This document shows, one piece after another, positions 9,697 through 60,810 of a DNA stretch of 64,000 nt (position 1 is the stretch's first letter; every line of letters starts with the position of its first letter). The stretch spans positions 9,141,415 to 9,205,414 of the forward strand of contig NC_092032.1 of NCBI RefSeq assembly GCF_042242105.1. Direction: 5' to 3'. The position numbers were made by a program, and so were the translations under genes. This DNA is from Pempheris klunzingeri. Taxonomy: Eukaryota > Chordata > Actinopteri > Acropomatiformes > Pempheridae. The notes beneath the pieces were generated by a model. The model had not been told where the DNA came from, ran no database searches, and worked only from the letters and a program-made list of their open reading frames with translations.

Positions 9697-10662
9697 TCAA
9701 ACAGCCTTTCCCGGGAGGCACATATGGCAGGTTCTCCTCCCCAAGAAGGTGAGCATGTCCAAACAGTTGAAAGTGGTCAGACTCAGAAACACCTCATTGA
9801 TATTCTGCAGATCAATGTTTTTTAAGTAAGTCAGCCGGAAGATGTGGTAGGGAACGAAGCAAACCACCATGATGAGGGCAAAGCACAGGCTCTTCTGCTG
9901 AGCCCCGACATCCTGCTGAGAGCTGCATCCCTGGTGGGGCTTCCTGCATAAAACCCATAGGACATTGGCTTGGAGTGCTGTCAGCACGATGGCCACCATT
10001 ATGATTAATATGCTTGTGATGTAGTTGAACACCATGGCAGCAGACTGTGTTCTGATGTTTTTGCCAAACCTGAAGCAATGTGTTACACTGGTGTTACCGT
10101 TGTTGTGCAGGCTCGTTTCTTCATCATTTTTGCCATAGAGAAAATGGAAAATGCAAGGGACAACGACAAGCACCACAATCCACACCACAGCACTGACAAG
10201 GAGCGCATAAGTCCTCTGGAAGGAGGCCATCTGCTCAGCTTTGTGGTAGAACGCCATCAGGCGCATGATGAGGATGATCACATAGAAGATAAAAGACATG
10301 TACATGTGTATGTGGATCATGCCACTGGCCACTTTACACCACCCGAAGCCCAGGTTCCACTGATGAGTCGCATAATAGTAAATCCTGAAGGGCACAGTGA
10401 GAAGGAAGATGAAGTGGGCGAAGATCAGGTTAAGCACAGCAATCGAAGTACTGGATGTTGTGCTGGATTTCATGATGTGCATCATCAGGCTCAGGCTGAT
10501 GGTGCCGCTGACCAGGACCACAAAGTAGATGGCCAGGAGGACTGTGTGGTACTCATCTGTCACTGGATCATATGGTGGATTTGAGGTTCCGAGTAAGGAG
10601 CTTGTGGTTATCGTGGAGCTTATGGCCTCAGATGGTGCGCTTTGGGTAACGGTGGAAGCCAT
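9697..10662 (-). CDS. gpr141: GPR141-like class A orphan G-protein-coupled receptor
   Basis: Uninterrupted 321-codon frame with seven hydrophobic segments at roughly 41-64, 73-97, 110-136, 150-173, 211-236, 256-280 and 288-307. Similarity to mammalian GPR141 is clear around TM2 (LLTVPFRI), TM3 (HIHMYMSFIFYVIILI) and TM6 (VVCFVPYHIFRLTYL). Conserved Cys109 (top of TM3) and Cys196 (second extracellular loop) could form the usual disulfide, and Asn190-Thr-Ser is a possible glycosylation site. The DRY motif is replaced by MRL (133-135), there is no NPxxY in TM7 (CLDMLTFLG), and the cytoplasmic tail is only about 13 residues. GPR141 has no established ligand. ATTCAG lies immediately before GATGG at the start, so a 5'UTR intron probably ends one base before the ATG. 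It could be a fish-specific GPR141 paralogue. Confidence 0.85.
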   Translation of the reverse strand: MASTVTQSAPSEAISSTITTSSLLGTSNPPYDPVTDEYHTVLLAIYFVVLVSGTISLSLMMHIMKSSTTSSTSIAVLNLIFAHFIFLLTVPFRIYYYATHQWNLGFGWCKVASGMIHIHMYMSFIFYVIILIMRLMAFYHKAEQMASFQRTYALLVSAVVWIVVLVVVPCIFHFLYGKNDEETSLHNNGNTSVTHCFRFGKNIRTQSAAMVFNYITSILIIMVAIVLTALQANVLWVLCRKPHQGCSSQQDVGAQQKSLCFALIMVVCFVPYHIFRLTYLKNIDLQNINEVFLSLTTFNCLDMLTFLGRRTCHMCLPGKAV

Positions 10663-11323
10663 CCTGAATAGAGACAGAAGGGGAGGAAGAGAGAGGGGGG
10701 CACATCAGATGCAAGAGTGAAAGAAAAGGAGAGAAATGGACAGAGAAATTAAAAACGATAGTGATGGGGGAATAGGTCAGGAAAGTGTTCAATATTTCCT
10801 ACATCTCTGACCCTGTTAAAAGATTTTTGCATAGTGCCACTTTGGGTGGCGAATTAAGGTCTGAATTAAGTATGGACGCTGTTGTATGCTGCACAGATCA
10901 AAAAGCCCCTTCACAAGTAAAACTGACTAGAGTATTAAAAACAGAAGAAACAGAAAAAAAAGCAAGAAAAGAGAAGATACATGTCAATAAAAACCAGTTG
11001 ATTGAACTTGTTTTTATACACACCACATTATATTTACATACTATTACTGATATATGTTGCTCACATTTGTTCATATATTCCATCACAACACATTAACCAG
11101 AGTGTAATTTTAGTCTTCCATGCAGCTTTGCATAGGTAGTTACACATTTACACACGGTCAGTTTAACAGGAAACAGGACTAAGAACAAACCGTGAAAAAA
11201 AAAAAAAAAAAGTTACAGCATTTAAATATCACATTTAGAAATTATAATCAAAAGTTCAATGCCTCCGTGGAAATTGCATTGTGAATGAACATAAAGTCAA
11301 AACCAGAGTTTAGATTTCCGTAC

Positions 11324-23532: not shown

Positions 23533-23857
23533 CTAATTACAGATGTATACATGATGCTTCTTTTATTAGATTAGTTAAAACACACACACACAAACAGACC
23601 ACATCAAAGCTCACTCCTCTGTATCCTAACCTTATGTATGGGGCCCTGGATGAGCCGTTGGGGAGGAGTGTGAAGAGACTGTCTGCTCTTAGACCATCTG
23701 CCACCACCAGCACCAGTCTGGAAGCAGGGGGCACCAGCGATGTGGCCTGGGGTGTCATGCCATGGACCAGGGGAGAGGTGAAGTAGATGTCAAAGATGGA
23801 GACGAAGAAGACCACGTGGACTGTCAGTCCAACCAGAAAGAAGGTGATCATCCTCAT
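13697..23857 (-). CDS. pign: PIGN, GPI ethanolamine phosphate transferase 1, complete
   Basis: ER membrane enzyme that adds ethanolamine phosphate to the first mannose of GPI-anchor precursors. There are 28 coding exons, all GT-AG with consistent phase: 23857-23631, 23389-23268, 23172-23074, 22581-22475, 22207-22083, 21969-21839, 21706-21587, 21392-21352, 21250-21191, 20967-20875, 20695-20640, 20452-20374, 20052-19870, 19739-19600, 19200-19101, 18946-18854, 18198-18107, 17546-17441, 17334-17226, 17004-16902, 16715-16613, 16122-16036, 15826-15771, 15000-14925, 14669-14596, 14175-14133, 14002-13950, 13820-13697. They total 2802 nt, 933 residues (human 931). A TM anchor lies at about 4-24, then the alkaline-phosphatase-superfamily domain with VVADGLRAD (Asp54), [26 protein letters not shown] and [17 protein letters not shown] (Asp264, His265, His277), then a multi-pass C-terminal half. 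The start is the first ATG (MRMITFF); a second is two codons on. A 5'UTR intron (24301-23896) separates a leader exon with its donor at 24302. Confidence 0.96.
15215..15605. repeat. A-rich dispersed repeat, copy 2
   Basis: Related to 3730-4240 in the same orientation, sharing the GGTCAAAT..TGTTAA, ATGAGGAG and AAATACCCC..ACTAAAAC blocks. It lies in the pign intron between exons 15826-15771 and 15000-14925. Confidence 0.6.
16831..16888. repeat. (GT)n microsatellite beside a pign 5' splice site
   Basis: Nearly pure GT with one interruption. On the pign transcript it is a CA tract starting about 12 nt into the intron after exon 17004-16902, a position known to recruit hnRNP L in other genes. 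Confidence 0.9.
17385..17422. repeat. (AC)n microsatellite filling a short pign intron
   Basis: The intron 17335-17440 is only 106 nt and more than a third of it is this tract. On the transcript it is (GU)n, about 18 nt after the 5' splice site. Confidence 0.9.
23476..23531. repeat. (AC)n microsatellite in pign intron 1 of the coding region
   Basis: AC dinucleotides in the intron between pign coding exons 23857-23631 and 23389-23268, (GU)n on the transcript. Confidence 0.95.
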
Positions 23858-24301
23858 TTTGAGTGTCAACAAGGAGCTGGGTCTGTAGAGCAACCTGGAT
23901 GGTGGGGAGGGAGTCGGGAGGATTTACTGTGTGTGCAGGTGAAATAAGGTTAGAACAAGAAAGACAGGCAGAATAAAAAAGGACCGGGGCAAATAAGGAC
24001 AAACTCAAAGTTACACAGCCTAACTCTACATCCAGGGCTAGTGATGGAGGAGGAGGTATTAGGTTCCGTACAATATAGACTCGTTAAGACCAAGTATGCG
24101 CCGTGCAAAGACTGCTTAAGTGCAGGGGTAATCCCTCTGTCACCAAATGTCATCAGCCAAGTAGAAATAATGACCTCAATTGTTATTTCGGTAGATTTCA
24201 ATGAATTACCCGCTGCGCTAGTAGACTGGGAGTGGACGCTTGTTTACAAGACAGTGACTTAGAAAATCAGTGACCTGTATAGATCATACAAATAGTCTTA
24301 C

Positions 24302-25062: not shown

Positions 25063-28000
25063 ATGGCGTCGGTCAACCCGTTCAATCTCAGTGACTCTGA
25101 GGAAGAGGCAGAACGGCGCCCTAATGAAACAGTGGACACAGAGAGAAGCCCGAGTGACGGGGCCCCAGGGCCGCCGCCAGGCAATCCCTTTTCTCCGCCT
25201 GCGGACGCCGAGCCTCCGATGCTCCTGCTGTCTAGCAACCGGACGAGCCCCAGCGGCGAGGGCATCTCGGTGTCGGTCGCGGCCACCTCCGCTATGGCAG
25301 GCACCGCCGAGACGCGGGTATCTGTGGATGTTATTGCTGCACAGCTATTACGGGACCAATACATTCTCACGGCCCTGGAGTTTCACACCGAACTGTTGGA
25401 AGCAGGCAGAGAGCTTCCGAGGTTGAGGGATTATTTCTCCAACCCTGGGAACTTCGAGCGACAGAGCGGCACTCCGCCTGCCAAAGACCAGGTACTCGGA
25501 CCTGGAGGACCACTGAGTAAGTATGCTCCCAGTGCTAGTCACGGAGCTAACTGTCAGCTAGCTAGCCCTGTCTGTAGTGATGCATTGGTACTAAGTTAGC
25601 CCACTAGCTAGCTAACGTGGGCTTAAAACGCTCAATTTGGAAGCCAGTCGATCGTGAGATATCCGCCTGCTGCACCTGCCCTCCCGTCAGGGCCCACTGC
25701 CAACAAGCGGGCTTTGTGGGTCAGCTGTGTTTGCTGACATACAGAACAGCGCATCACACAACTACAGAAATGTGGTCTGACTGTGTGAGGTGTGTGCGTG
25801 ACATTGTGACAGCCCAATAATGATCATCCTAGTGTAACTGAGCACCGTAGGAAAATACCCCCCTTATCTTTAGGCCAGTGGTCAGAGGTCAGGATCAGCT
25901 ACAGTCACTAGAACAAGAAAAGGCTTCCACCACCTGCTCTTGCATTATTTTCTTTAACTGTGATCATGCCAATAAAGCAATCTTGAATTGGAAGATAATG
26001 CTACAGTTTTTAACAATTTAGTGTCTAGCTAAAGAGGATGCATTATACATGCAGAATGCAGAATTAGGTTTGAACATACATCATCTTGCTTAGGAAGACA
26101 GTTGTTTCTACAAGGCCAAGAGTGTATATCACCCCCACCCTCTCACATGTCTTTTTTTAAGTAATGACCCGTGTCACTGTATGGTGGCTGACATGTCAAA
26201 CATGCCATGCAAATGGTAACAATGGCGACAGCCCAAGCCACAAATAAATAGGACCTGCAATAGAGCAGCAAGGGTAGTATTACCATAAACTTTAACTCAG
26301 CTGTGGCAAAGCACAGGAGCTTTGCATTGAACTGAATGAGTCTCACTGAAGAGACTGGAGCAGAGCTATTCATACTCCACATAAACCTGTAAGGCACCAT
26401 AAAGCTTCCTCTGGTCTAAAAGCTGCAAATTGGCTGCATTCAAAGAGAGCTAGACATGAAAAGCTTATGAAAGCCTTGTACAAGTGTTTTGAGGGGTTGT
26501 ATGTGACTGGAAAGTGATAACAATTATAAAATGCCCTTGTCTGCACATTTTCTCGTAATGACTCTAAGGTTTTAATGGAAATGACTCAGCTTGGTATTCT
26601 CCCCTGCAGTGATTGGATGTGTCGTGTCAAAATATATTCATCTTAGATCCGGGAGAAAAACCATGTCAGTGATAGTTGCACACCAACCCTATCTTTTAAA
26701 CCATCAGAGACACACAAGCAGGAAGCACTACAGGCTGTGAATTGAATTGACTTCAACCTGCATCTCTTGTTTAGTGTCCTAGGTCAACACACATTAACAG
26801 AACTTTAAAGAGTCCTCCTTTTACCTGCCACCAGAAAATGGATATCTTGTATTTATTTCTGTTTATTGATCTCAGTGAAAGCAGATGATCTTTGCATCTT
26901 CTCACATGCAATATCACACCAGTAGATGGGATTTGCCATATATGGAGTGATTCTAATCAACAAAACACATTTTGATTTCAGTATCTGCAGAAATTGGCCG
27001 TGGTACATGCTGTCAGAATCAAAGCAGATTGAACTGGAAATGTTGTGTTTCCTGTTACCATTTATAGGAGGTGTGAAGGGTAATTTGTCTTTAGTGTTTT
27101 AGTTTTTGGAAATGCATACAGGTATACATACAGGTATACAAAGGTATACATACAGTTTGCCATGACAGCAGCACTGCAATTGTAATTTGTACTCTTTGGT
27201 GCAGGCTGAGCAACAAGACCAGATGATGAATTTTCATTGTATCAACATTTGGCAGGTTTCCAGCTGAGGGATCCTCAGCATAGAAATAAAAGCTAAAGAA
27301 AGAGGGGATGTGGTCTTATAAACAGAAGATTTCTTTCCCCTCATTTAGATGCAGTAGCAATGGACAATAACCCGATGTCTCCTGAGACTGTTCAACAGTC
27401 TTGAGTGTGGGTCTCAGCAACTGGCCTGAGGCTAGCTTTAGCAGATAGCAGATGGCAGCCAGTCAGATCTACTGCAACCTTTGCCTGTCAATATCAAGCC
27501 CACCCTGTCGAATTAAATACCTATGTACACCGATTTTCTACAATATTTATATCTTAGAGACCACAGCAGCAAACACAAACACTTTGAGATATAGATGTGT
27601 GTGTAGTTGCAAAGGTCTGGTGGTTACATTATCATACCAACCCCCAAAAGATTTGGAGCAAGATAACAGAAAAAATGTTTTAAGATGCTGTCATGAAAAA
27701 GCATGACAAGACATGACAGCTCCCCTGATGTGAAAGTGACAGGGGCATCACGGAGAAGCAGTAATGTGTGTTTTATAGGCTATTGATGACAGTAAAGGCT
27801 GATGAAAATATGAAATCCTGGATTTCTGATAAGTCAAATCTTCCAGATGCAGATGGGGAAAAAATCAAGCAGCTGATGGGAGTTGATGAGAGAGAAAGTG
27901 ATGGACTCAGCCCAAAGCAATGTTACTTTTCTTTCCAGCATAATCTGATAGCCAAGACCTCATGTGATCACTGGACTGATCCGTGTCCTCATGTTTGAAG

Positions 28001-34000: not shown

Positions 34001-37000
34001 CAGAAACAGCTTGCTCATGTTTTTTTATGAGAACAAGTCTAAATCAGTAACCTATCAGATTCTAAATTACATTCTGACTCTTGAGTTTTATAGCTTAGAT
34101 TGTGTTGTTCTTAGTATGAAGGCGGAAGCTATTAAGGAGTTAAAAACCTGAGCAGTGGCTGTCCTTTGAGTGGCTTGAAACCAAATGATTTAATTACTTA
34201 TTAGTAAGGCATTTGCCTGGAAAAAAATCCTGTGTCAGACAGCTCCTAGATTATCAAGGCTACATCTCCGTAACTTGAATAGATTTTCTCACCTCAGCTA
34301 CAATTGAAGTAACTCTGGTCTCCCATGTTTTTTAAGTCAGTCACGTCAGTACTATTAATGGGAGGAAAAACGAGGGCAGGAAATCCTACTATTGAGAGGT
34401 GTCTTAATGCATTACACACACACGTCAAACAGACTGTCATCCAGCCGGCTTTACCATGATCCTCTGCTGCATGCGTTCTGTAGACCCATAATTTGCATGC
34501 ATTCTTTTTAGTTGTCTCTTACAATCTTTTGTGTGGTTATTTTGTTTTTCATGCCCATCTTTGTTTTGTTTGTTTGTTCCCTGTCTTTGGTTGGATGCAC
34601 TTCCTGTGTGTGTGTGTTGTCACTTCCTGTCCAGTGCTGGAGTTTGAGCTACGGAAAGCAAAGGAGACCATTCAGGCTCTGCGCGCCAACTTGACTCAGG
34701 CAGCAGGTGTGGCGTACTTTTAACTTCTTCTCCACCTGAACCCTCTTAAAGCTTTCTGTCTTTATTTTTTTTTCTAAGAGATTTCCTCTAGATGAATATC
34801 GCTCAGCGGCTTTTCAAACTCATTTAAAATCTTCTCAATTTCTCAGAGAGCGAAGTGCCATCTCAGGAGAGAAAAAACTTCAAGTCAAGTCCTGAAATTC
34901 AGGTGGGAAAATGTTGAAAATGAAGTTTTGTGAATTTCTTTTTTTTTTTTTCCAAATAAATCAAGCGATCAGATGTGTTCCTTTAACCCCCTGTGATGGT
35001 ATCACTGCAAGACCTTGAGTGATTCAATTCACAGGTTCTCTCTCCTCTCTACCACAGGAGCCTATACGCCCACTGGAGAAAAGAGCCTTAAACTTCCTTG
35101 TGAATGAATATTTATTAAAAAACGAATACAAACTCTCATCCATCACCTTCTCTGATGAAAATGATGATCAGGTAAAGATCTTTCTAGATGTCTGCTTCAT
35201 GATACAGAATTGTTTAATTCCTAGGGCTAAATAGGTATCAGAGAAGTGTCAGACTTGTAAGCATGAGGGTACTGGTCTAAGAGCAGTGGTAGGGTCATGT
35301 GACCATAAATAAATTCAACAAGTCGGATCAGCTGTCAGCTTGCATCGTGTCCCGTTTTATCTATGCAGGAGACACCCCTGCTTCTGCCACATATTAGTGC
35401 TGTTTAATTATTTACTTTTTTTGCTCATTTCCAGGACTTTGAGTTGTGGGATGATGTCGGCCTCAACATCCCAAAACCCCCTGACCTGCTACAGCTCTAC
35501 AGGAACTGTGGTACCCCCCTCCCTTCCCCTCGGGACACGACTGATGTATCAGTTGGGGTGGATTTTGGTGACCTTCCGGGAAACTGCATTGCCCAAGAGC
35601 CCCCAAAGAAGCCTGACCTTTCACAACAGGTTTGTGTGTAGCTGTGCACCCATACAGTATGTATGGGTGCACTTCAGCTCTTCATGAATTATACCTTTCA
35701 TCCATGTTGGATTTCTGGCTTTACCTTAAAGGATTGAGTCACTCAGGCATTTCGCTTTTGGCTGCACCAGTAAAGTCAGTTCAGTAAAGTGCTGCTATCT
35801 TAAGTAGAGATAGGTACTCCATTATCATAGACACACAACCCCGTTTGCTCTTACTTTTTATTTATCTGCATGATTTGAAGGTGTATACTGGGCTGAAAAT
35901 AGTACATTTACACACCCTTTGAGAGGCAGCACCAGTTATAAAGGTCGATCGCTTTGATTCATCATAGCAGAGTAGTGAGGGCACCATACAGACAAGCGAT
36001 GATGATGAAAAAGGGAATTGGCACCTCGACAGCCACATTGTTTGTTTCAGTCTTTGGGACTGAATGGAAAGTGGCTGCTTTTGTCAATAAAATCTGAGAT
36101 GACTCAAGATTAATGTTGACCTATTAGAGTACCTGCTCTTGAGCTGAGCTATTAAAGTGTCTGTATAATCTTTTTGTCTCTTTATAGCAACAGGCAGAAG
36201 TCGTCCAAGAGTTGGAGTATCAGATAAGCCTCCTCAACAACGAGAAGCAGAGCCTAGCTGAGCAGATCAAGAAACTGCAGAGGTGTGTGCCTGAGCGCAT
36301 GTTAGAGCTAAGTGAATCAATGATACGGATTGGCTAGCCCAGTCACACTACATATCTTGTTAATCATATGGCCACTGTTAGTATGCTATGATGCTCACAC
36401 ACTTTCCTGTCCTCGTAGCAGGGATATGACATTACTATCGAACAAGTACACTCTGAAGAAAATCAGAAGCAGCCATACAAATCAAAAAATGTTCGCAGCA
36501 CCACAGTCCTCATAACAACATAACTGTGACCAACACTGAACATGAAGTGGAACCAGTATGAAAATTTCCCCCAAGCACCACCGCTGCATGAAATTACAGA
36601 GGAAACGTTGCTCTGATAGATTAGTGGAACTTTTCCTTCCATGTGGAATCTTTAATTGCCACCATCAAGATTCAGACAAATTTACTTTCCAACCAAAATG
36701 GTTGGGCCATTTTACAGAAATGTTCTAACCGTACTTTTGGACGGAAGATCTTTGTCTTATTGACCCATCATTATTAAGAATCATGTAGTGTTTTCTGAAA
36801 GCCTCCTCTTCTGTCTCATTTCTCCTACATGACAGTGAGATTCAGACACTGAAGAGGACTGTCTCCTCCCCACCTCCGGCCACTTTGAATCTGGGCTCCC
36901 AGAATACATCCAACCCATCCTGCTCCTCCTCCTCCTCCACCGCCGCCAACACTTCCTCCACTGACCCTCCCTCTGTGGTATGTGCTGTGCAGACTTAATG

Positions 37001-46000: not shown

Positions 46001-49000
46001 GTGATTTAGCTTTGGTGTTGTGGCCATTTATGAAATGTGTTTTGAGTCAAGATCCAGTCTGTGTGTAGGTCACTGTGACCTTACATAGCAATTGTACTTT
46101 TAGGTAGATATATTGTTACAGACACAGTCGTGTTATCAAATTATATTAGTGTTTAATTGCAAAATAGTTTGTGTCAAATTAACCCACAGTTGTGCATACA
46201 GGAAAATGACCATCTCAGAAATCTCTAAGCAGAAGCATCAATGAACTATAATGCAGTGTAGCTACTAGAACGGGAGGGAGGTCATGGCTTGATGCAGAAA
46301 AACAATTGTTTTTAATATTTGAATAGCTGTGATTGGGTTCTTTTCCATTCATTTATTTTGCAAGTTTTGTTCTGATTTTATTCCTTTTTCAGATACATCA
46401 GCGGGGAATGATATTCTCACCAAAGCCACAGTCCCCATTTATGCCACTGGAGTTCTGACTTGTTATAATCAGGTAAATTAATAGCACACCACATTCAGAA
46501 AGTAGCTGACTTGAAGCGAATTTTTGGTAATTGTCATACGTTGTGGTGCTTTTTAGTGTCTTGCAAGACATTATCCACAGTTTCTCAATAAGTCAATGTT
46601 TCCTCTATACAGTTACTTGATGTTTTGGCTATTTTTGGCTATTCTCTTGTAAGTTAAATATTATATAAAGTGTTAACCACATTTTGGTTGTTGTTCTTTG
46701 TCACGAGGGAAAATCCACTCCAACTCACATCAGGCCCCCACATGTTTTTGTTTTGATTTAGTTTTTTAGTTTAAAAAATGCAAACTTGCAAAACAATGGA
46801 AAGCTTTATTTTGACTTACTTGTCAACGCAGCATGTCAACAAAACATGTACAGAGCTGCTTTCAACATGAGATTTCCATCTCATGTTGAAAGTGACAGAA
46901 ATGTCAGCTCTACCAAAGTACTCTTAACTGATCTGTAAAAAATCACACACACTTGTGCTTATTAAAATGTAGATCTTTATTACATGTGGTGTAAAAGTGA
47001 TGTAACTGGCGTAAATATTGTGATCTGTGATTTCTGTACAGGAAGAGGACCGTAAGTTGTTGGTGGGTTTCCTGGAAGATGTTATGACAACCCTGTCTTT
47101 GTCCCATGCACCTCTCGACAGCCTGAAGGCCGCCTTTGTAGAGCTTGGGTGAGACATGCAAACACACTCGCCAACAAGCCTACATCACCAACAGGGAACT
47201 GTAATTCTACACTGACCATGTGTGGAACACTCTTTCTAGTTATTTGGAAAAAACAAAACAGAAATATGGAATTTTTATTTGAGTTATTTTTTTCTTAAGG
47301 GCAAAAATGCTTTTTTAATTTTCTTCTAAAAGTTGCCATGAGGGGAGTTTCAGCCCTCTACCGCATGGTTATATTTATTTATTCATATTTGCACTGGTGG
47401 TCAACTGGTAGTGTCCCTACACTCCAAAGTAACCAGAATGTCAAAATATGGTTCTGTTGTGAGTCAGCAGCCTTTTATATAAGGCCTTATTAAAATACTA
47501 AACAGCTACTTTTCTGAGAAATATTCACCTTTATTCATCCTAATAATACTGTAATCAGTACCCAACTGTCATTCATTTCAGGTACTGAGACTTTCTCTTC
47601 AAAAACACAAGAAGTAATAGTTTGCCCACAAGCACTATTGTTGTGATTATCCAGTGAGTCTACCCCCAAAAACTTTCTTCCTAGTTCTTCCTAGGTCTTT
47701 TAACCTAGTTGATCCCAGGTTTTTTACCCACTGCTTGTACAATGTTTGTATACATGTACATGACTTGAGTAAATTAATTCTTCTACTTTATACTTCTGCT
47801 CCACTACATTCAAGAGGCAAATACTTTTTACTGCATTCATCGAACAGCTGGAGTTACTTTGAGTTTGAAGTTTTACCTCAACCATAAACCATACGTACCT
47901 GAACCATATGTAAAGATTACAAAATAAAGTGAATACTTAAGATTGATCACCTTCTACATTGAAATGCACCTTACACATGTATTTAACGCAGTAACAAAAC
48001 ATATATTTTGATATAGCACCTTGAAAAGTCCCATCCTGCATAAGAAAAACTTTTGGCATTTGACATTTGGTTGATAACGCTTGTGTATTGTGTATTTTTT
48101 TTTTTTTTTACTATTTCAATGTATTTTTCATCAGCCAGCTCATATATCTTTACTTTAGTATGTAACATAGGAGAAAGTGGAACAGGGGTAATGTTAAATG
48201 TGTTATCTTAACTATCACAATTTTCAATGTCACCAATGCGATCAGCTTTCAAATGTGCATACAAACTTTATCATGCATCCTTTAATAGTTGGCCCGACTC
48301 AATATGCATATCATGGGTCTTGTTGTACTAATGAGTGAATTTAGATAAAGCATGTTGATCATGCCTGTTTACAATTTGAAACATTTATATGATCAGAGCA
48401 ATGATGCACATACCCCTTCTCTAGTCCACGAGGGATCTCACCACAAACCTTTCATCATGTGGTCTTCCACAGCAAACCAATTTACCAAGACATTTCAATT
48501 GTATACAGTTATATTGTGCCAAATACCAACCTGGCTGTGCACAAAACCAAAGTTAACTATTACATGAAAGCATGTGCACAGCTGCCCGCCCCCCCCACCC
48601 CTCCTGCATGTTAGTGAGCAGCAGACTGTAACGTATTTGGGATGGTGACTAATTTGTGTTATAATGTTGGCTGGTGCACCTGCCTCGTGGAAACACTCCC
48701 CCTCTGACTCTCTGTAACTCTGGTATCCGACACATTACAGTAACAGATATAATTCATCTTTATTGTAGTTATCAATCAACATGCAACTCCGGCATCATGT
48801 AATTAGTTTTATTATTATAGTCAGTCAAACATCGGATCTCATGTGAATCAGGCTCCAACATTATATAATTAAGGTCACCAGTAGATAAGATAATGCTATC
48901 GCCGCCCACTGACCCCGTAACCAGCGGGTGAAGAACATTGGATCAGCGTGGTGTTCACTGTTACATGGCAGGTATTTTTGTGTACTTTTCTGGGTTATAC

Positions 49001-51906
49001 TCACAGGATAGTTACACTAACAGTAATTAGTGGCAAACTCTCATTTCTTGTGTATTTGATGAGACAGTGTCAGTGGGTACCTGAAGGATTGGCATGTTTG
49101 GGTACAGGTTACAGTATTATTAGATTATGATTAGTATTAGAAGTGAGCATTTCTCAGAAAAATAACTGATATTTCCGCCTTATAACAAGGCCTTCTATAG
49201 GAGACCATATAGAACCATATTTTGACATATTTAAATACAACCTAAAGGCAGAAGGCTTTAAGTAATTTTGATTTTCTAATCCGGGTAGGGGTATCTCAAA
49301 ATGTTGTGAGCTTGGTTCATGCAATGGGACTGCCTTTTATAGGCTACTGTAGATTACATCTAATTTCGTATTTTAATTCCTTGCTTCGGGAGAAAAGCAT
49401 TTCCCCATTTCAGAGTGTGTGTTGAATCATGCCTTGAGTTCGTTTGGGTTGTTTGAGCACCTCCAGACCACTCATTTTTGAGCCCATCCGTGACAATAGA
49501 AAGGGTCCTGAATTATTACTTCTCTAAATGGGAAATATTCACAGAAGTGATTTGACTTCTTTGTGTAAACCTCAAAAACCCAAACCCAAAAAGCAATCTC
49601 GCAGTTTGAAAGTCGGTTGTTGGTTGACAGCTGCTACAACATTGACCAGTATTTATGTTATGCTTTCTTTCCAGCGCCAACCCAGTGTACCATGAATTGC
49701 TGCTGACTGTTCTGTGGTACGGGGTAGTCCATACCTCTGCACTAGTCCGGTGTACTGCAGCACGGATGTTTGAGGTACAAAACACACACATACACACACA
49801 GATTGTGTTTTAAACTAATCACAAATGTTTAGAGTTTAGAAAAATTCACTGTAGGTTTTTTTTTTTTTTTTTTTACATTTTTGCAAGACGAGTATAAATG
49901 ACTTGGTCTCCTACAAAATGTATACTAGCAAATATGATATTTACTTGTAATCCTGTAATTATCCTGTTGTTGTACTAGACAATACATGCCAAGTGAAATT
50001 ATACATACCGTATTTTTGCACAGTTGTACATTATAGATGCTATTTTTTCACATTTACCTATTTGCTGTTCATGTGCTAGCTCTGCTTGCTTGCTGTTTTA
50101 AATGCATTTTGCATATTTAGCTATTCTGTTTCATGAGTTTGAGTAAAGACTACTGTAACTTATCAGCACCCCAGTTCCAACTGTATGGCGAGACCCTCCT
50201 AGAGTTAACATCAGACCTTTCACTGTGCACTGGTCTCAGAAGTGACTACACAAATATCTGCTGCATGTCAGAGAGGCTAAAGTCAGCAACCTGAAAGTAC
50301 AGCGACAAGAGTTCAACGCCTGTTCCTTTTCAGTGTTGTTGGAAAGTATAATTTAATCAGAGATGTTTTCTCATGAATATTTTTTTTAGTTTTTCAGTAT
50401 TTCAGGACTTGAGGAAATATAATACTACTATTATTTTCATAGGGAGGTCACTGTTCCCCTGTTTTCTTTCTTGTGATTTTATTCCACTAACTGTATCCAC
50501 TTGAAGCCAGGTTACCAAGGCAAAAGTCCTGGCCTCCCAGTCCTTCTGAGATCTGTGCACACTTAGGTCAAATGTTGGGATCTAGGCATAGCTGAGGATC
50601 TGGGCCTATATTGATCTAAACTTGGGGGAGGAGGAGTGGTAGGCTTCAGGCCCCCTTGTTTTGTGAAGTACTTGCCCTTTCCCAACACACCCCCACTGTC
50701 ACCATTCCATAGTGATTAGCTGTCCACCATTGTCAAAACTGTGGGATGAAATGTGGTCCTCTACCACAGATACCAGATCAGATTTGCTTTACTGTCATCT
50801 ATATTATCAATTCAAACAAATTAAATGTTAATCTGACCTGGAGTCTGTGGAAAGACCCCACAGCTTAATGCTCACCATACTGTAAAAGTATTCGTGTAGT
50901 TAAGCTATGTTGGCTTTGCCATTTCTTCTGCATACCTGCGTGTGCATGTGCGTGTGTTTGCTCGCGTGTGTGTGATTGTGTGTGTGTGTATACACACTTG
51001 CTTGATACATGCAGTGCCGTTCCGAGCCTTGCAGCTAAGGTTCTTGTCATTGTATATCACTTTCTTCCTATCTTTTTGTGTTTTTTTTTTTTTTTTTCCC
51101 TCCCCTTTTCTGTTTTGCTTCTTTTTTCTTTTCTCTCTATCTATTGGCGGTGTTGCTCGCTCTTGTCCCAATGCCCCGCCCGCCTCTGTGACATCACGGC
51201 TGGCTCTGTCCAATCCGATCAGCTGCTGGTGAAGGGGGTGAATGAGACGCTGGTAGCTCAGAGAGTGGTGCCGGCTCTCATCACACTGTCCTCCGACCCT
51301 GAAATGTAAGTGGAACAACAACAACAACAACAACAACAACAATAAACCGCGCCGCGTCTCTCTCCCCCCTTCTCTTTGCCGCCTGAGGACTATCTCACTG
51401 AATCAAGTCTGTACCTGCCAGGAGCAAATTCAGCACAAAACGGTTCCTCAAAACAGAATCTTCATTGTTCATTTATTTTCTTTGACATCAGTTTTAATTT
51501 TACAATTTCATATTATATATGTTCTCCTTTTGATTTTCCTTGTGAATTGCCTAGTCTTCCGTGGTTGTGTGGAGTTGCTCCTGTTTAGGTTTAGGCTGGG
51601 CCATGGGGTGGTTCATCACTGTTAACACTCTGCATGTTCGCATCATCAATCTGCAACACTAACCCACGCCAGCTCTCGCCACCTCATCAGTCTGCAAAAC
51701 TAATCTGTCCGGATTTGTATGTGCACATTGGCCGCATGCGGCAATAGCACTATCCCAGCATGCTCATCTGTAACCCGTCCCCTCCTCCTCTTCCTCCCCA
51801 CCCCACTCAGTTTAAGCAGGGCCCCTCCTCCTGACCGACCCATCAGCTATTGGTTGGTTGTCTTCACCCCTTCTTCTCAGTTTTATCCTGCCACTCTATT
51901 TCTTTC

Positions 51907-51950
<44 letters not shown>

Positions 51951-54521
51951 ATCATCCCTTCTATCTTCTATCTTTCACCTCTCTCCTCCCACTCTCTATC
52001 TCTCCTTCCCCCCCTCCTGTCTCTGTTTCCTCCCACCCTGCCTCCTCCTCTCTCTCATCCTGCTGTGTGGTGGGTTTGCAGTTGGTTCTCCGAGGCATGA
52101 GTGAAGCATTAGTAGATCGCCGGGCGGCTCCGGCCCTTATAACTCTGTGCAGTGGGCCTGAATTGTGAGTCAATCGACACAAGAAAATTTCTCTGTAAAC
52201 ATTGTCATTTTGTGGGCTGCATCCTTACAGTGGAAAGCACTGTCTCCTAAGACATCTGTCTCTCTGAGCAGGGATGGGCTCTAAAAAAAAAAGTTTTGGC
52301 TGCTAGTTTACATCCAGCTTTCATGTTTGAGTAAACAAGATGATGACATTAGTTTTGACACTGTTGGAATGCAGCCCTTTTCATCTCATCATTCTCTGAT
52401 TGAAATGCTGTGCTAATTGGCTGCACACTTTGTAGATTCCACATATGTTTATTTAAAAATCTTAACATATGTTTTTGTAACCTTTTTCAACCCAAAGTCT
52501 TTCACATATCTTGCAGTGTCCACGACCTGCCGACTATAAAATAAACATGAATACTCAGAGACATAATGAGAAACTGTTTTTGTACTCCACCAATTCCAAA
52601 ATGGTCCAAGTGTCTTTTCTGCTCCTACTGACAGTGGAATGATTATCTAACATCACCCTAACAGCACCCCGTTAATCTTGCTTGTGACGGTTCATTATGA
52701 TAATGGATTACTATCAGATATTTGTAATCACGCATTGTTATCTGTTTGTGTTCAAGCTGTTGGCTTAAGAATGAAATAGTGAATATATTAAGTTAATGGC
52801 ACACATTGATCATAGATGGATACTAAAAAGTTTTGCGAGTTTAACATTACAGTTACAGATGTTTTTGTATACCTTCATGTCTTTGATATATAAAATACAT
52901 AATTTCAGTCAATATTTGAATCGGTTAGTAGCATTGCCATGTGAAACTAGCCTCAGGAACTAATGACACCCTGATGTCGTGGTTAATGAGGTCATAACCC
53001 AACACTGTGGTGATTCAAACATTGTTAAATAAATCCGATAACTACTGGCAGATGATATCTTACTCATTCAGATTCTTGCCTAAAGACATGCTAATTGGAG
53101 TACACCTAAAAGAGTGACACGGTGACTATGAATGGTAAAACCTTTATCTTGCTCTCCTGCTGCTTTTAGCTCAGTGAGGATATCCACCATCCCTGCCTTT
53201 GGTACCATCATGGAGACTGTCACACAAAAAGAGGTAGGAAGCTCTCACTGCCAAACTGCACACTGTGGGATGCAACCTAATATGCAAACAATGAATTGAA
53301 TTAAACAACAGATTTGTATAAGTCATCATAAAACATGTCTAATACATTCTGTGCCTGTGCGTAGCTGCTGGAGCGAGTAAAAATGCAGCTGGCATCGTTC
53401 CTGGAAGACCCTCAGTACCAGGATCAGCACTCTCTGCATATGGAGATCATCAGGACATTTGGAAGGGTCGGACCCAATGCAGAGCCACGCTTTAGAGATG
53501 AGTGTATGTAAAGGACACAGATGCATGACACATTAAATGCACATTAAAAAATCCAATACTGAGCAATTTATTGATTTTATTCTTCTGATCTGCCTCTCAT
53601 GTACTTTGTGTGTGCCCTAACTTTTTGTCTCTATGTTTTTTTTTTTCCTCCTAGTCGTGTTGCCACACCTTCACAAGCTCGCGCTGGTTAACAACAGCCA
53701 GACGGTGGAGAGCAAGAGGATTGACATTGCCACCCAGCTGTTTGAGGCCTACAGTGCCCTCTCCTGCTGCTGTATCCTTCCATAGGTCACACTTACTGGC
53801 CTCTGTAAGCTGGGCCATATACTGTCAGTTTGGATGAACCCTCTTTAGGAGGACTTTTATTTATGGTGCTAATACTAGCCATACACTTACAAGTGTAACA
53901 GTTAGACAGCCTAACGATACTTAAGGGGAAAAATGTGTTGCCCAAGTTTTCTGAGAGGTCAGCTCATAGTTTTTTAACTACTGTACTGTATGTATTTCCA
54001 AATGACTTCCTGGAAGTCTGTGTCAAGGTTGGCTCCAGTTCAGGGTTAGCTGTTGTAGCAGTGAGTCAGTGGGAAAGCCGTTAGAATAGCCACTCAAATG
54101 CTTGCTGCACTGGTTAAGTGTGCCCCTGAATGTGCATGTACAACTGTGTGGTATGTATCAGCGTGGTCCCAGCGCCTGAGTGTGTGGTTCAGTGTGTGTG
54201 TTGGCAGAGTTTACCTGTCATTTGGCAGGAGGAGAAAGGGAAAATAAGCTGCCTCCATTTTGGGGCTAGAGGTAATTACAGGGTTGGTAAAGTAAAGGAA
54301 AGGATGAGAGAGGGAGAAAGAGCGTGAGAGGAGGAAAGGGCTGAACATCAACTTCAATCCTGAGAAACAGTTCCCAGGACGGGGCTTACATTTACATTGC
54401 CTCTCCTCTGTCACCCTTCTCCTCTGTGATTCTTTAGTTGTTTTTTTTTCTATTTCTCCTTTCTCACATTATATTTCCTCTTTCTACTCTGTCTCTGATG
54501 TGAGCCCCACCCAACCCACGT

Positions 54522-54552
<31 letters not shown>

Positions 54553-57550
54553 TGTAGAGGACAGCTGGTCTGAGGTTCATTCCTGTGGATCTTTGTTAGG
54601 CTGTGATTTCACAGTGCAGTAGTGTCCAGGAGGTATAGCGCTAACCTCAGAGGCTTTACCTCCCACTGCACTTCTCTTGCAATCAGTGTGACGAGCTTTG
54701 AAATTGTACATTCCCATCTCTAAAAATATAGATTCGTTCACTCTGTGTCCCATATACATGTAGCTCCACTGTCTATGACAGGTGGCAGGACAAAGTACTG
54801 TTGTACTGAACATTTTGTTTTGTGTCAGCCCACATATATAGCAACACAGTTATTTTAAGAATGTTTGGACAATGAAAGGAAAATATTTTTAATATGTTTT
54901 ACGATATATTTTGAATTATCCTGAAGTATACTCCATTCGTCTAGTAATGCCTGAAGCACTATCCAAATAGTATTTGTACCCGCTTGGCCTTGAAGCACCA
55001 ACTTTTTTTATATACCTGCAGCAAGTGAGAAGAACAAGAAAGTTTAGCTTTGTTAAGCTCTATATTCAGCTATGTTCAGTCAAAATAGGTTGGTTTTGCT
55101 GCCCTTTTTCATTATTTTCATTCCCAGGTTAATGGTTTTTAAAAAGAGCTCCCACATTTGGCTTTCTTAAACCTTCATGAGAGCCCAGATAATGAAAAGT
55201 TAGCATAGTGAGTCCCACTGCATGAATAGCAATAAACTGCACAAGTTTTTCATTCCAGTCCTTAATTTCCTGTGCAGTCATTTCTGAGGAGGTGATGGTC
55301 AACCACTTCCTGCCTGGCCTCAGGTGTCTCCGCGCCGACATGGAGCAACTCTCCCCCGAGCACGAGGTCAGCACGCACACAGGCATGCATTCACATTCAT
55401 GCACACGATGGGGGGGTTTAACATTTACAATCTCGTCCGCATACTCGCGCACTGACTGGGTCAGACTGTCTCCCTCTTTTCTATCTGTAATTCCCAGGGC
55501 ATCTCCCGCAGTATTGGTAAAGACAGACAGTGTGACCAGTCACCTCTTTCTCAGACACACTCATACACACACCTCAACCATATTTATTTGTGTCGCAGAA
55601 TCTCACGCGATCCATTTCATGTGAGCCTTTTCCTGACTTGACTAACGATCAGCTGACTCTTTTCCTCTCTACACATCCACTCTGTCTGTAAAGCCCACAT
55701 ACCAGGATTGTTTTCCAAACTGGAACTTTAATGCACTAAAACATCCAAATACAGAATACATGCATGGTCTTTTATTTTGTCATGATGGGAACTTGGAACA
55801 GAATTAGACACACACCACCTGTTTCGTACCGCCCCAGTGGTGACATGTATTGTATCAATCATGAGATCCCATTGTTTTTTCTGCGTTTCAGAATGTGTCT
55901 CTATTGAATTTTTCACAGGTTATTCTAAGTTCTATGATCAAAGAGTGTGAAATCAAGGTGGAAAACAGAGGAATGGCAGACGCACAAGGGTGAGAACAAA
56001 CACACCTCATCGTCTCGTTCACACCATCACTTCTGAAATGATTTACAAAATATTGTTTTTATTGCGCTAATTGCGTTCGAGGTGGCGACAGCAAGAAGTG
56101 AAGACTTAAAAGTGGTACTCAAGAAGAATTTGGAAGGGGAAGAAGGAGTCCTGACTGTGAGGAGAGGGGTCGCTTGACAGTGTTGGGACTGGGGCCTGTA
56201 TTGTGGCTTTTTTCCCCCAGGGGAGAAGAGAACATGGAAGAGTGTTGGAACCACACTCATTATGTGGGCATCTTCACAGAAAGAGAGAGCAGAAAAATGA
56301 GAAGAGTTGTTTTGATAAAGCTCCGAGAGCTGGGACACCGGCCATACTGTGGGTGTCTTTTAAAACATTTCCCCCATCTTGTTAACATGTGTTTGGGCTC
56401 AGTAAAAAAATGGATGGAAGAGGCGTGCATATGTCTGCCTCTCTCTGTGCACATACGCTCAGTTTTGGGTGTGTTCCCCTAAAACCCTCATTTAAACTCT
56501 GAGGTTAGAATATCTGTGTTTGTGCCCAGAGATTCTTGTTCCTCTTTCATTTTGGTCTTTCTTCGACCTCTTATTATAATTGATAACTTGGATTTTTATT
56601 GCCACAGTATGCATCTTTAAAGGAGTTTTGACCCTGTAAAGAGTGGATTAATTTTTTACTTCCTGGTATTTAAAATCATGGAATCCCTGATATCTTGTGG
56701 CTGCCACAGCTTAGTGAGCATTCTGTCTTTTTCACTGTCTTTTTGAAGTGGCACGACATAGCATTGGTGTAATTCTTCATAGGTCCAGAGTTTCCACACG
56801 GCAGTGTATCACATTTTGCATACTTATGCACATATAATTAGAAAGCTGCATGAGCAAAATGAGACTTCTTCTACAAGAACTGTATGTACAACTAGTAAGG
56901 TGATACACAGAATTAACTTCAACAGTCAGCAGGAAAGTTGAGACCTTTATGCTAAGACATGAGGCATTTTAACACCAGATTGTGTTGTTGTTCTTATCTA
57001 GAGGCCATATGGTGATGTTCAGTCTTGGCTTCCCAAATCCGTTGACTTTAGTTTTCTGTCAAGATATGATGTTTGTCCTTCTGTTGAGCAATGTGGCAGC
57101 TTGGCTTGGAGTGTTGTAACTGCTCCTCTATATCAGCCTCAATCCCACCTAACTCAAAAGAGGAACTTGTGGAGCCGTTAGACTATAAAAATCAGGAGGG
57201 GCCATATTGGCAAACAGCATTTGCCTTCTAAAGAAATAGAGTAAATGCTGACATTGAGATTAACAACAGATAGTGGAGGACGGTGTAGTGTTTTTTTTTT
57301 TTTTTCTTGTGTTACTGTGCTTTGTGTTTGGGCCTGTCTTTCAGTCTATATATGTTAATAAAGCTGAGCTAAACCTTGTTGCTTCATCATGGAGAAACTC
57401 AACCTTTAGGCCTTTTTTTCTTTCCATAGCTCCATGTCCATCGCCTCCAGTTTGGTGGGCGAAGATGCCAAGACCAAGTTCCTGAGCAAGATGGGTCAGC
57501 TAACCACTTCTGGCGCCATGCTGGCCAACGTCTTCCAGAGGAAGAAGTGA
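25063..57550 (+). CDS. relch: RELCH (KIAA1468): LisH, coiled-coil and HEAT-repeat protein, complete
   Basis: Known family role: Rab11-binding protein that links recycling endosomes to the trans-Golgi with OSBP for cholesterol transfer. Exons: 25063-25516, 31631-31720, 34635-34706, 34847-34902, 35058-35171, 35435-35629, 36188-36282, 36836-36977, 37141-37298, 37942-38017, 38191-38286, 42387-42499, 42658-42748, 43468-43539, 43650-43790, 44011-44175, 44458-44605, 44705-44861, 44987-45110, 45743-45791, 46393-46472, 47042-47148, 49675-49774, then 51223-51305 or 52082-52164, 53170-53233, 53365-53503, 53655-53771, 55278-55366, 55919-55989, 57430-57550. All are GT-AG with consistent phase and give 1192 residues (human 1216). 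There is a LisH at about 86-122 (IAAQLLRDQYILTALEFHTE), coiled-coil segments (FELRKAKETIQALRANL; LLNNEKQSLAEQIKKLQ), a divergent Ser/Pro linker, then HEAT-type helices from about residue 480. The C-terminus LTTSGAMLANVFQRKK matches human. The ATG has an AAAATGG context. Confidence 0.96.
25517..31630 (+). other. relch intron 1, 6.1 kb, no gene seen
   Basis: The largest intron of relch. The open frames inside are short and lack recognisable homology or splice context. Minor simple repeats include CATACAGGTA-type tandems near 27115-27152 and an ATT run at 29141-29154. Nothing else could be identified. Confidence 0.6.
39166..39189 (+). CDS. relch: Candidate 24-nt in-frame cassette microexon of relch
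   Basis: Eight codons (RMVAHLCQ) flanked by a strong acceptor (CTCTCTTCTAG) and a consensus donor (CAG|GTGAGTC). The preceding exon ends at a codon boundary (AAACGAGAG at 38286) and the next starts at one (42387), so inclusion would insert eight residues after residue 516, at the edge of the HEAT region, without a frame change. The 135 nt before it contain no AG and are pyrimidine-rich. Human RELCH as I remember it runs straight through this junction (AKREELIPL), so this would be an alternative form. No transcript evidence is available. Confidence 0.5.
44872..44890. repeat. (CA)n tract beside the 5' splice site of relch exon 44705-44861
   Basis: CA dinucleotides starting 10 nt into a short 125-nt intron on the relch transcript. 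Confidence 0.85.
46859..46892. repeat. Perfect 15-bp hairpin with 4-nt loop
   Basis: Arms CTTTCAACATGAGAT and ATCTCATGTTGAAAG are exact reverse complements around TTCC. Outer segments AGAGCTG (46853-46859) and CAGCTCT (46905-46911) can pair further. It lies in the relch intron between exons 46393-46472 and 47042-47148. Confidence 0.85.
47438..47672 (+). repeat. Left arm of a long imperfect inverted repeat
   Basis: Shares, with the reverse complement of 48983-49229 and in the same order, ATGTCAAAATATGGTTCT, TTTTCTGAGAAAT, CTAATAATACTGTAA, TTCAGGTAC, ACACAAGAA and AGTTTGCC. Confidence 0.75.
48983..49229 (-). repeat. Right arm of a long imperfect inverted repeat
   Basis: Its reverse complement aligns by eye along its whole length with 47438-47672. 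Substitutions and small indels suggest the insertion or duplication is old. Confidence 0.75.
51223..51305 (+). CDS. relch: relch alternative exon 24A
   Basis: 83 nt encoding LLVKGVNETLVAQRVVPAL and ITLSSDPE plus two bases. It follows GATCAG and ends GAAAT|GTAAGT. Its start phase fits the exon ending at 49774 (MFE|) and its end phase fits 53170 (|CTCAGTG). Fifteen of 27 codons encode the same residue as exon 24B. The canonical human protein, as I remember it, matches 24B better (GMSEALVD), so 24A would be the alternative HEAT helix. Confidence 0.85.
51314..51342. repeat. (CAA)n trinucleotide repeat
   Basis: ACA/CAA repeats starting 8 nt after the 5' splice site of relch exon 24A, in the intron between the two alternative exons. 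Confidence 0.9.
51881..52079 (+). promoter_or_regulatory. AG-free pyrimidine tract before relch exon 24B
   Basis: Almost entirely C and T, including a (CT)n microsatellite at about 51902-51945, with no AG dinucleotide until the acceptor at 52080-52081. It implies a distant branch point and many PTB-type binding sites. Confidence 0.65.
52082..52164 (+). CDS. relch: relch alternative exon 24B (canonical-like)
   Basis: 83 nt encoding LVLRGMSEALVDRRAAPAL and ITLCSGPE plus two bases, between TTTGCAG and GTGAGT. It has the same length and phases as exon 24A. It corresponds to the remembered human segment LRGMSEALVDKRVAPAL. Including both exons, or neither, would shift the frame of the following exon 53170-53233. 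Confidence 0.9.
54527..54551. repeat. (AC)n microsatellite
   Basis: AC dinucleotides in the relch intron between exons 53655-53771 and 55278-55366. The rest of that 1.5-kb intron shows no gene. Confidence 0.9.
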
Positions 57551-58775
57551 TCGCAAAACTGACCGATCGCCTACTGCAACTAACGGACGGTCCCCTGCTG
57601 TCTTTGGGAGCGTTTCATTTTACTGGAGAAAAATAAGCATTGGTTCAGCTTAAAGTAGAAGAAAACCAAGTGTTTTGTTTATTCAGTTTCAAGAAATGGA
57701 GGTTTACTGAGAGCTGCGTTGATTTAAAACCTCCAATGCAGCAGGACCCCTTTCTCTTTAAAGGTGAACAGCAATGTTTTTTGCAGTGGAGTTTTTTTTC
57801 CCCCCTCTGCTCATTTTTTCTCTTCTTAATCCTTAATCATGACAAAAGCGTTATCGAGGACGAGGGATTTGTGTTTCAGCATTGTTAACATTGTCATTTC
57901 AGAAAGAGGGGAGAGAGAGATTCACTACTGAGATTCACCCAAGTGATAACAAGGGGCTTGTTTCCCGGACGTTTCTGGACTTAAAAGTATCACAGAATTT
58001 AATTTTATTTCAGTGCAGTACTTCCTGTATCAGAAGAGCTTCACTCGTCTCTAGGAAACAAAACTCTGAGCACGGCCTGCTGGATTTTATTTAAAGTTTT
58101 AAAACGCCATTTTGGAGGAAAGCAACAGATGCATCCACTTGCATTTGTCATTGAATAATTGGACGGAAAGACGACAAAATGGCTGTGAGTCTGTTGAGAA
58201 TGCCTCACACAGTGTACCTGTATGGATCAGAGGAATCGCCTACTTGAAGCTATAAAAAAAATGACTTGCCTTTATTTCTTCAAAGTCCGTTTCCTGTTTT
58301 TGTTTTGATAGCTTCTATTTTATAACTTATTTATGTCTTAATGAAGGAAAAACAACCTTATTCCAACTTCCAAAGAAATTTGCACTTCACTTTACTGTTT
58401 TGTTCTTTATTATATGATATATATACATATATATTTGTTTTATTTCAGAGTCTTCTACATGATGAACATTATCACTACCATAATTTGTTTGTTTGTATAT
58501 CCGTTTTGGCAATGTGAAGTTGAAGAGAACTCTGATCATGATTATTCCTCTCTGTCCGTTGCATCCTGTCTCTCTGTGTTGCAGTGTCTCTGATAATTGT
58601 ACTTTTTTTCTAAAAGTGGGTATTTGGTTCTATTTTTTGTTGTTGCTCTTTTTCAGTATGCTCTAAGAGAAACAGTAAATAACTGTATCATACACTGAAC
58701 TGAAGAGGACGGTACTCATTATGTATATTTGAAATTGGTGTCATGGTGTAATAAAAGATGGAGATCAGTTGTGTA
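57551..58775 (+). other. relch 3'UTR with poly(A) signal
   Basis: Noncoding AT-rich sequence after the TGA at 57548-57550. The first clear AATAAA is at 58750-58755, so the transcript probably ends near 58775. A second AATAAA near 59045 could serve as an alternative end. Confidence 0.6.
58750..58755 (+). terminator. Poly(A) signal AATAAA of relch
   Basis: Canonical hexamer 1.2 kb after the stop codon in the transcript orientation, with TG-rich sequence (GTTGTGTAC) just downstream. Confidence 0.65.
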
Positions 58776-60232: not shown

Positions 60233-60387
<155 letters not shown>

Positions 60388-60810
60388 ATTTTTGTGTATA
60401 TGAGCTGTCTGGAACAGGCTTACTCCATGAACTCTGACTTGTTTTAAGTGATGCTAAGCAACACAACCCACATGCTTACAGAGCTACACAGTCTGTGCTC
60501 CCTCCCAGGTCACTTGAAGTGTGATGCTTGTAAACCAGCATGGTGTCTGCCTGTGGTGGATCTACATTTTTATACATCAAAACAAGCTTGATTGTAACTT
60601 CTGTGTTCGAAGTGGGGCCTAACAGGGACTTCTCTATGTTTCCAGTTCAGTTTTTTTATTAAGGGTTTACCTCAGTGTGAAGGTTATGGGTGCCTTCAGA
60701 TTCAAGCTGAGGTTTCTGATTGCTAAAAGAGTGCAATCTGGTTCTTAATTGCCACTGTGCATGCTGCAGAGGCCCCACGACAAAACAGCCTCTCTCAGCG
60801 GGTTTTTAGA

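Follow-up and report, generated by a model that had tools for sequence, protein, structure and literature searches.

Candidate mutually exclusive exons with a PTB-type intron layout in relch of Pempheris klunzingeri

Introduction

Are two adjacent exons of 83 nucleotides (nt) in a fish gene, whose products resemble each other, alternatives of which each transcript uses only one, and how would one of them be chosen? This question is raised by a stretch of 64,000 nt (64 kb) of Pempheris klunzingeri DNA (NCBI RefSeq assembly GCF_042242105.1, contig NC_092032.1, positions 9,141,415 to 9,205,414 of the forward strand), hereafter the window, which carries a gene that we take to be relch and thus to encode a scaffold protein of cholesterol traffic. 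A preliminary description of this DNA had proposed a tandem duplication with mutually exclusive splicing of the two exons, here called A and B. Our analysis suggests that tandem exon duplication with one-or-other use is the best reading of the locus, and that it is strengthened by the layout of the introns and by an alternative exon of 83 nt in mouse Relch. Published papers are cited for excerpts of their texts, and statements that a paper does not mention something apply to these excerpts.

Results

Exons A and B are homologous and either one keeps the reading frame

Both exons have intact GT-AG sites, with cag directly before them and, directly after them, gtaagt in the case of A and gtgagt in that of B. 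In both, the frame continues in phase 0 from the exon whose last base is 49774, and the junction with the exon at 53170 falls after the second base of a codon; the translations are LLVKGVNETLVAQRVVPALITLSSDPE(I) for exon A and LVLRGMSEALVDRRAAPALITLCSGPE(F) for exon B. The two exons specify the same residue in 15 of the 27 complete codons and are identical at 48 of 83 nt. Among the 12 changed residues in complete codons, 9 score at least 0 in BLOSUM62, and the two isoforms would differ in 13 residues (967-993) with the split codon included. Coordinates, phase and translations thus bear out the preliminary description in that there are two homologous exons of 83 nt, and its assignment of exon A to residues 966-993 agrees with the relch model.

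When all 32,437 stop-free 27-mers of the six-frame translation of the window were compared with exon A, the scores were 127 for A itself, 75 for B and no more than 28 for any other, and the best of 300 shuffles of A reached 44. This comparison revealed no third copy of the exon in the window. The 646-Mb assembly was searched for exon copies at an expectation value (E) of 0.001, with only the best candidates scored; among these, the query made of exon A and the exon after it had no match beyond these two exons themselves, and the exon B query none beyond exon B. No relatives of the exons were found among viral and prokaryote contigs.

The frame is kept with exon A alone or exon B alone. Since an exon of 83 nt does not hold a whole number of codons, the frame is broken by the use of both or neither, as had been proposed: with A and B together a stop follows at 52098 with six exons still to come, and with both skipped a stop follows at 53493 with four exons still to come. 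According to the usual 50-nt rule for nonsense-mediated decay, transcripts with both exons or with neither should be open to this decay.

The proportion of synonymous differences between A and B (pS) is 0.81, which means that synonymous sites are saturated and the Jukes-Cantor distance is undefined, and the nonsynonymous proportion (pN) is 0.27, from which we conclude that the duplication is old. The contrast between pS and pN looks like constraint, but does not by itself prove that both copies are constrained.

Both exons follow unusually long AG-free stretches

The introns in front of A and B stand out by their lack of AG dinucleotides. Only 3 of the 4,262 gaps between neighbouring AGs in the window reach 150 nt, namely one of 199 nt ending at B's acceptor, one of 181 nt ending at A's acceptor and one of 162 nt in a GT/CA repeat (60239-60403). 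We compared the 30 relch acceptors, i.e. those of A and B and 28 others. The AG-free zones of the 28 others range from 18 to 122 nt (median 37.5), so that A and B have the two longest. They are also the two weakest acceptors (scores 0.8 for A and -0.2 for B, against 1.4 to 9.1 with a median of 5.2 for the others), a comparison made with vertebrate position matrices and somewhat biased, because the other exons were partly picked by the same score; the AG-free measure is unaffected by this. The maximum pyrimidine density in 60 nt is highest for A and B (0.95 and 0.93, all others at most 0.85), and over 250 nt B ranks first in pyrimidine fraction (0.82) with A (0.70) just under one other exon (0.72). 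The tetramers TTCT, TCTT and CTCT, which are PTB-type motifs, occur 17 times in the 250 nt before A and 39 times before B, the two highest counts, with 1-16 (median 6) for the other acceptors and A only just ahead of these. This test of AG-free zones and PTB-type motifs was devised after the sequence had been inspected. A scan of the last 260 nt before each exon gave branch-point candidates at both far and near positions.

Among human exons, an AG-free zone of at least 150 nt is found in 165 of 67,334 (PMC1431707). The rate of alternative splicing is raised for zones of at least 100 nt, and the experimental examples of exons with distant branch points are all alternatively spliced, the few that were analysed being all PTB-regulated (PMC1431707). 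As far as can be read from the sequence, the layout of the introns before A and B matches that of PTB-regulated exons with distant branch points, which suggests distant branch points for A and B as well. This layout is a new element beyond the earlier observation of the exon pair.

Two further features of the splice sites in this region were seen. The donor after 49774, in front of the pair, has a score of -1.2 and is the weakest U2-type donor in relch; of all 30, the U12-like donor after 53771 is the only one with a lower score. The sole TGGTGG on the + strand of 49775-53169, an ESRP-type motif, lies just before B's acceptor within TGTGTGGTGGG (52064-52074, + strand).

An alternative exon of 83 nt in mouse Relch

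The mouse gene 2310035C23Rik, which is RELCH (PMC5940305), has a cassette exon at chr1:107637012-107637094 (mm9) that is listed in Table 1 of PMC3907290 as predicted to be PTBP1-repressed (p 0.87). It belongs to the top 50 cassette exons by predicted PTBP1 repression, with scores of 2.03 for upstream PTB binding, 1.76 for the exon and -2.46 for 3' splice site strength (PMC3907290). According to its coordinates, this exon spans 83 nt. Since A and B are the only exons of 83 nt in the fish relch model, one of them very probably corresponds to the mouse exon, judging from the conservation of exon sizes. The fish pair and the mouse exon are alike in gene, length, a positive upstream PTB-binding score and a weak 3' splice site; they differ in that the mouse exon is a single cassette exon, the gene being named once in the main text of PMC3907290 and without a partner exon. 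The preliminary description knew of no account of this arrangement in fish; judging from the alternative exon of this length in mouse, the exon is probably not confined to fish, and the pair is probably no novelty of fish.

The passages cited here from papers that mention RELCH, KIAA1468 or 2310035C23Rik (main texts) contain no account of the A/B pair, and six exon peptides sought in paper texts gave no match. The pair is not described in the excerpts of PMC8609283, which deals with exon 3 skipping, PMC11203723, which has a transcript name in a table, PMC10119258, which has a cryptic exon whose location is not given in the passage, or PMC7465030, which has a splice-site variant with the exon unstated.

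The exchanged segment should lie in the OSBP-binding part of RELCH

Mapping of RELCH with constructs ending at residue 1,216 placed the binding of Rab11-GTP in residues 497-779 and that of OSBP in residues 904-1142 (PMC5940305). Counted from the C terminus, fish residues 966-993 would correspond to about 990-1017 of the mapped protein, and the A/B swap should therefore lie inside the OSBP-binding part and not in the Rab11 part. Rab11 had been suggested as one of the affected surfaces, which is unlikely in view of this mapping, and an effect of the swap on OSBP is plausible. The earlier proposal that the pair swaps one HEAT helix is about right, except that the exon, judging from the HEAT match at 980-1009, would also extend over the turn and the last part of the helix before it.

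When equal stretches of 144 residues were scored with the HEAT profile, the stretch with A reached 27.4 bits and the one with B 17.6 bits. The mostly mild residue changes between A and B fit a tuning of the surface or of the packing and not the loss of the fold. In sequence searches of solved structures, a 49-residue query with exon A best matched HEAT repeats of the PP2A scaffold and a 144-residue query with exon B best matched designed armadillo repeats; the queries differ in length, so these lists are not a controlled comparison, and no chain named RELCH was among the matches listed for either.

Gene model and other features of the window

The relch model, obtained by dynamic programming and then corrected by hand, comprises 30 exons of the + strand, which begin with the ATG at 25063 and reach the last exon at 57430, and with exon A it forms a single open frame that encodes about 1,190 residues. 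In a Pfam search it gave HEAT repeats (best stretch 980-1009) and no LisH domain at E 0.1. An intron of the model at 53772-55277 (+ strand), with the 5' end GTATCCTT and the 3' end TCCTTAATTTCCTGTGCAG, looks U12-type (minor spliceosome). The name relch is assigned from similarity to human RELCH, together with one independent peptide check. The human RELCH peptide VAEHEVPLQER is printed as a product of exon 3 skipping that runs from exon 2 into exon 4 (PMC8609283); it matches the fish model in 9 of 11 residues across the 2/4 junction when the 72-nt exon 3 is omitted, and without skipping the best match is still 8 of 11, because the peptide lies mostly in exon 4. Exon 3 of the fish gene (34635-34706, + strand) preserves the frame and corresponds to the human exon for whose skipping PMC8609283 gives peptide evidence. 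The features of the exon pair and its surroundings are collected in Table 1.

Table 1 Positions of exons A and B and of neighbouring features in the window.
Feature	Position	Strand	Length (nt)	Remarks
Upstream relch exon	49675..49774	+	100	Common to both predicted isoforms; donor gtacaa
AG-free stretch before exon A	51040..51220	+	181	U/C-rich tract at about 51055-51145; second longest AG gap
Exon A	51223..51305	+	83	Residues 966-993 of the relch model
Intron between A and B	51306..52081	+	776	
AG-free stretch before exon B	51881..52079	+	199	Mostly CU-rich, partly CT microsatellite; longest AG gap
Exon B	52082..52164	+	83	Homologous alternative to exon A
Downstream relch exon	53170..53233	+	64	Common to both predicted isoforms

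An open reading frame at 23537-23923 (- strand) lies head to head with the relch ATG, which suggests a shared promoter region. It presumably resembles the start of PIGN and gave no Pfam match at E 0.01. A single-exon open reading frame of 335 amino acids at 9697-10704 (- strand) encodes a rhodopsin-family receptor (Pfam 7tm_1, E 5e-15), which is perhaps GPR141-like.

Discussion

The relch pair resembles the tandem homologous, mutually exclusive exons known from vertebrates (PMC4465641, PMC5740500, PMC9741552) in that the exons are adjacent, homologous and internal, equal in length and phase, that their joint use breaks the frame and that the duplication is old. Neither RELCH nor KIAA1468 is named in the main-text excerpts of these three papers (supplementary gene lists aside). 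With the exons of alpha-tropomyosin and alpha-actinin and with PTB exon 11 (PMC1431707), it shares a long AG-free zone, dense U/C tracts and a weak 3' splice site; unlike in these systems, the layout, as read from the DNA, is present on both members of the pair.

How could such a pair be kept from being spliced together? One answer would be that B's branch point is too near A's donor, or that RNA pairings between the introns compete, and some distant branch points do act sterically (PMC1431707). In relch, however, 576 nt with 21 AGs separate the end of A from B's AG-free zone, and a branch point near A's donor should therefore not reach B's acceptor. This argument from the sequence speaks against steric exclusion; B's branch point, if it is in the AG-free zone, cannot be close to A's donor, which sets the pair apart from the PTB-regulated systems with distant branch points. 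As for pairing, a GA-rich element at 50620-50650 in the first intron was predicted to form a strong pairing with the CU tract of B (-34.7 kcal/mol, with 9 of 320 control windows as good), and its pairing with A's tract is not unusual (-25.2 kcal/mol, 112 of 320 as good); this GA/CU pairing was chosen after inspection, largely reflects base composition and comes from one species. Both exons are flanked by an inverted pair of 18 nt (50723-50740 with 52351-52368, + strand, 89% complementary), and several inverted pairs of 16-19 nt were seen, all without a chance estimate. Against a structural mechanism, the fold of the intron between A and B is no more stable than those of its shuffles (z 0.33; 13 of 20 are at least as stable). 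No Rfam family was found at cut-off over 47000-58000. We regard exclusion by sterics or by structure as highly improbable. With steric exclusion disfavoured and the fold of the intron unremarkable, we favour a regulated competition in which PTB would repress one or both tracts.

Such control would also fit an expression rheostat, in which the pair would mainly yield frame-broken, decay-prone transcripts with both exons or neither, and the difference between the proteins would be secondary. The early stops of these transcripts agree with it, and non-productive splicing under PTB control is known for PTB exon 11 (PMC1431707). A poison exon, however, need not encode a conserved HEAT segment, whereas B has kept its 15 residues in common with A together with an open frame, and either exon alone keeps the frame of the gene; we therefore judge the rheostat unlikely as the main function. 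Less probable still is a reading of B as a duplicate in decay or in rare use, with A in effect constitutive. Its greater distance from the HEAT consensus would suit a decaying B, and neutral drift is compatible with the data if A is synonymously saturated. On the other hand, B has no stops and good splice dinucleotides, a weak acceptor behind 181 nt without AG would be unexpected for a constitutive exon A, and mouse Relch has an alternative exon of the same length.

Several points weigh against regulated, one-or-other use of A and B. When B was allowed to drift freely to the observed nucleotide distance in 20,000 simulated runs, the fraction of runs that were stop-free with at least B's score or identity was 0 (BLOSUM score) and 0.0006 (identity) with A held fixed; with A synonymously saturated, stop-free runs that equalled or exceeded B made up 18% by BLOSUM score and 42% by identity, so that a neutrally drifting B is not rejected by the A-B comparison. 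B's CU tract is partly a CT microsatellite, and repeats can produce large AG-free zones that are unrelated to splicing (PMC1431707). Branch-point candidates are present also at ordinary distance, at -32 and -27 for A and at -25 for B. In mouse, the excerpts of PMC3907290 name one 83-nt exon, as a cassette and not as mutually exclusive, and contain no validation of it; it could match either A or B. Of the high scorers tested in that paper, 7 of 10, 22 of 33 and 19 of 29 were confirmed, and about a third were not.

With these points taken into account, we consider it probable that one relch exon was duplicated in tandem long ago and that this has given rise to two isoforms with a PTB-regulated choice between them. 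The isoforms would differ at the end of one HEAT repeat and the start of the next. One exon would be the default and the other would be held back by PTBP1 acting on the U/C-rich AG-free tracts before both, with the repression relieved where PTBP1 is low, e.g. in neurons or muscle. Nonsense-mediated decay would remove the transcripts with both exons or neither, and the switch would adjust the second, OSBP-binding HEAT region and thereby the passage of cholesterol from recycling endosomes to the Golgi. A bolder version, which we put forward tentatively and on balance rather doubt, is that this is a vertebrate-wide, PTB-controlled tissue switch of RELCH at a HEAT-repeat boundary in the OSBP region, that both exons keep the layout with distant branch points, and that neural or muscle RELCH has altered OSBP binding and endosome-to-Golgi cholesterol transfer.

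If the two exons are used as proposed, the published binding maps of RELCH would cover only one isoform of the two that occur naturally, with the switch in the OSBP-binding part. A preprint connects RELCH with the brain protein DMXL2 and with hearing in mice (PMC12154601), and a neural isoform would therefore be of interest. The twin AG-free tracts would offer a clean natural case for the one-at-a-time use of duplicated exons where the steric explanation seems not to apply, and the switch, if true, would be a concrete link from PTB-driven tissue splicing to sterol transport.

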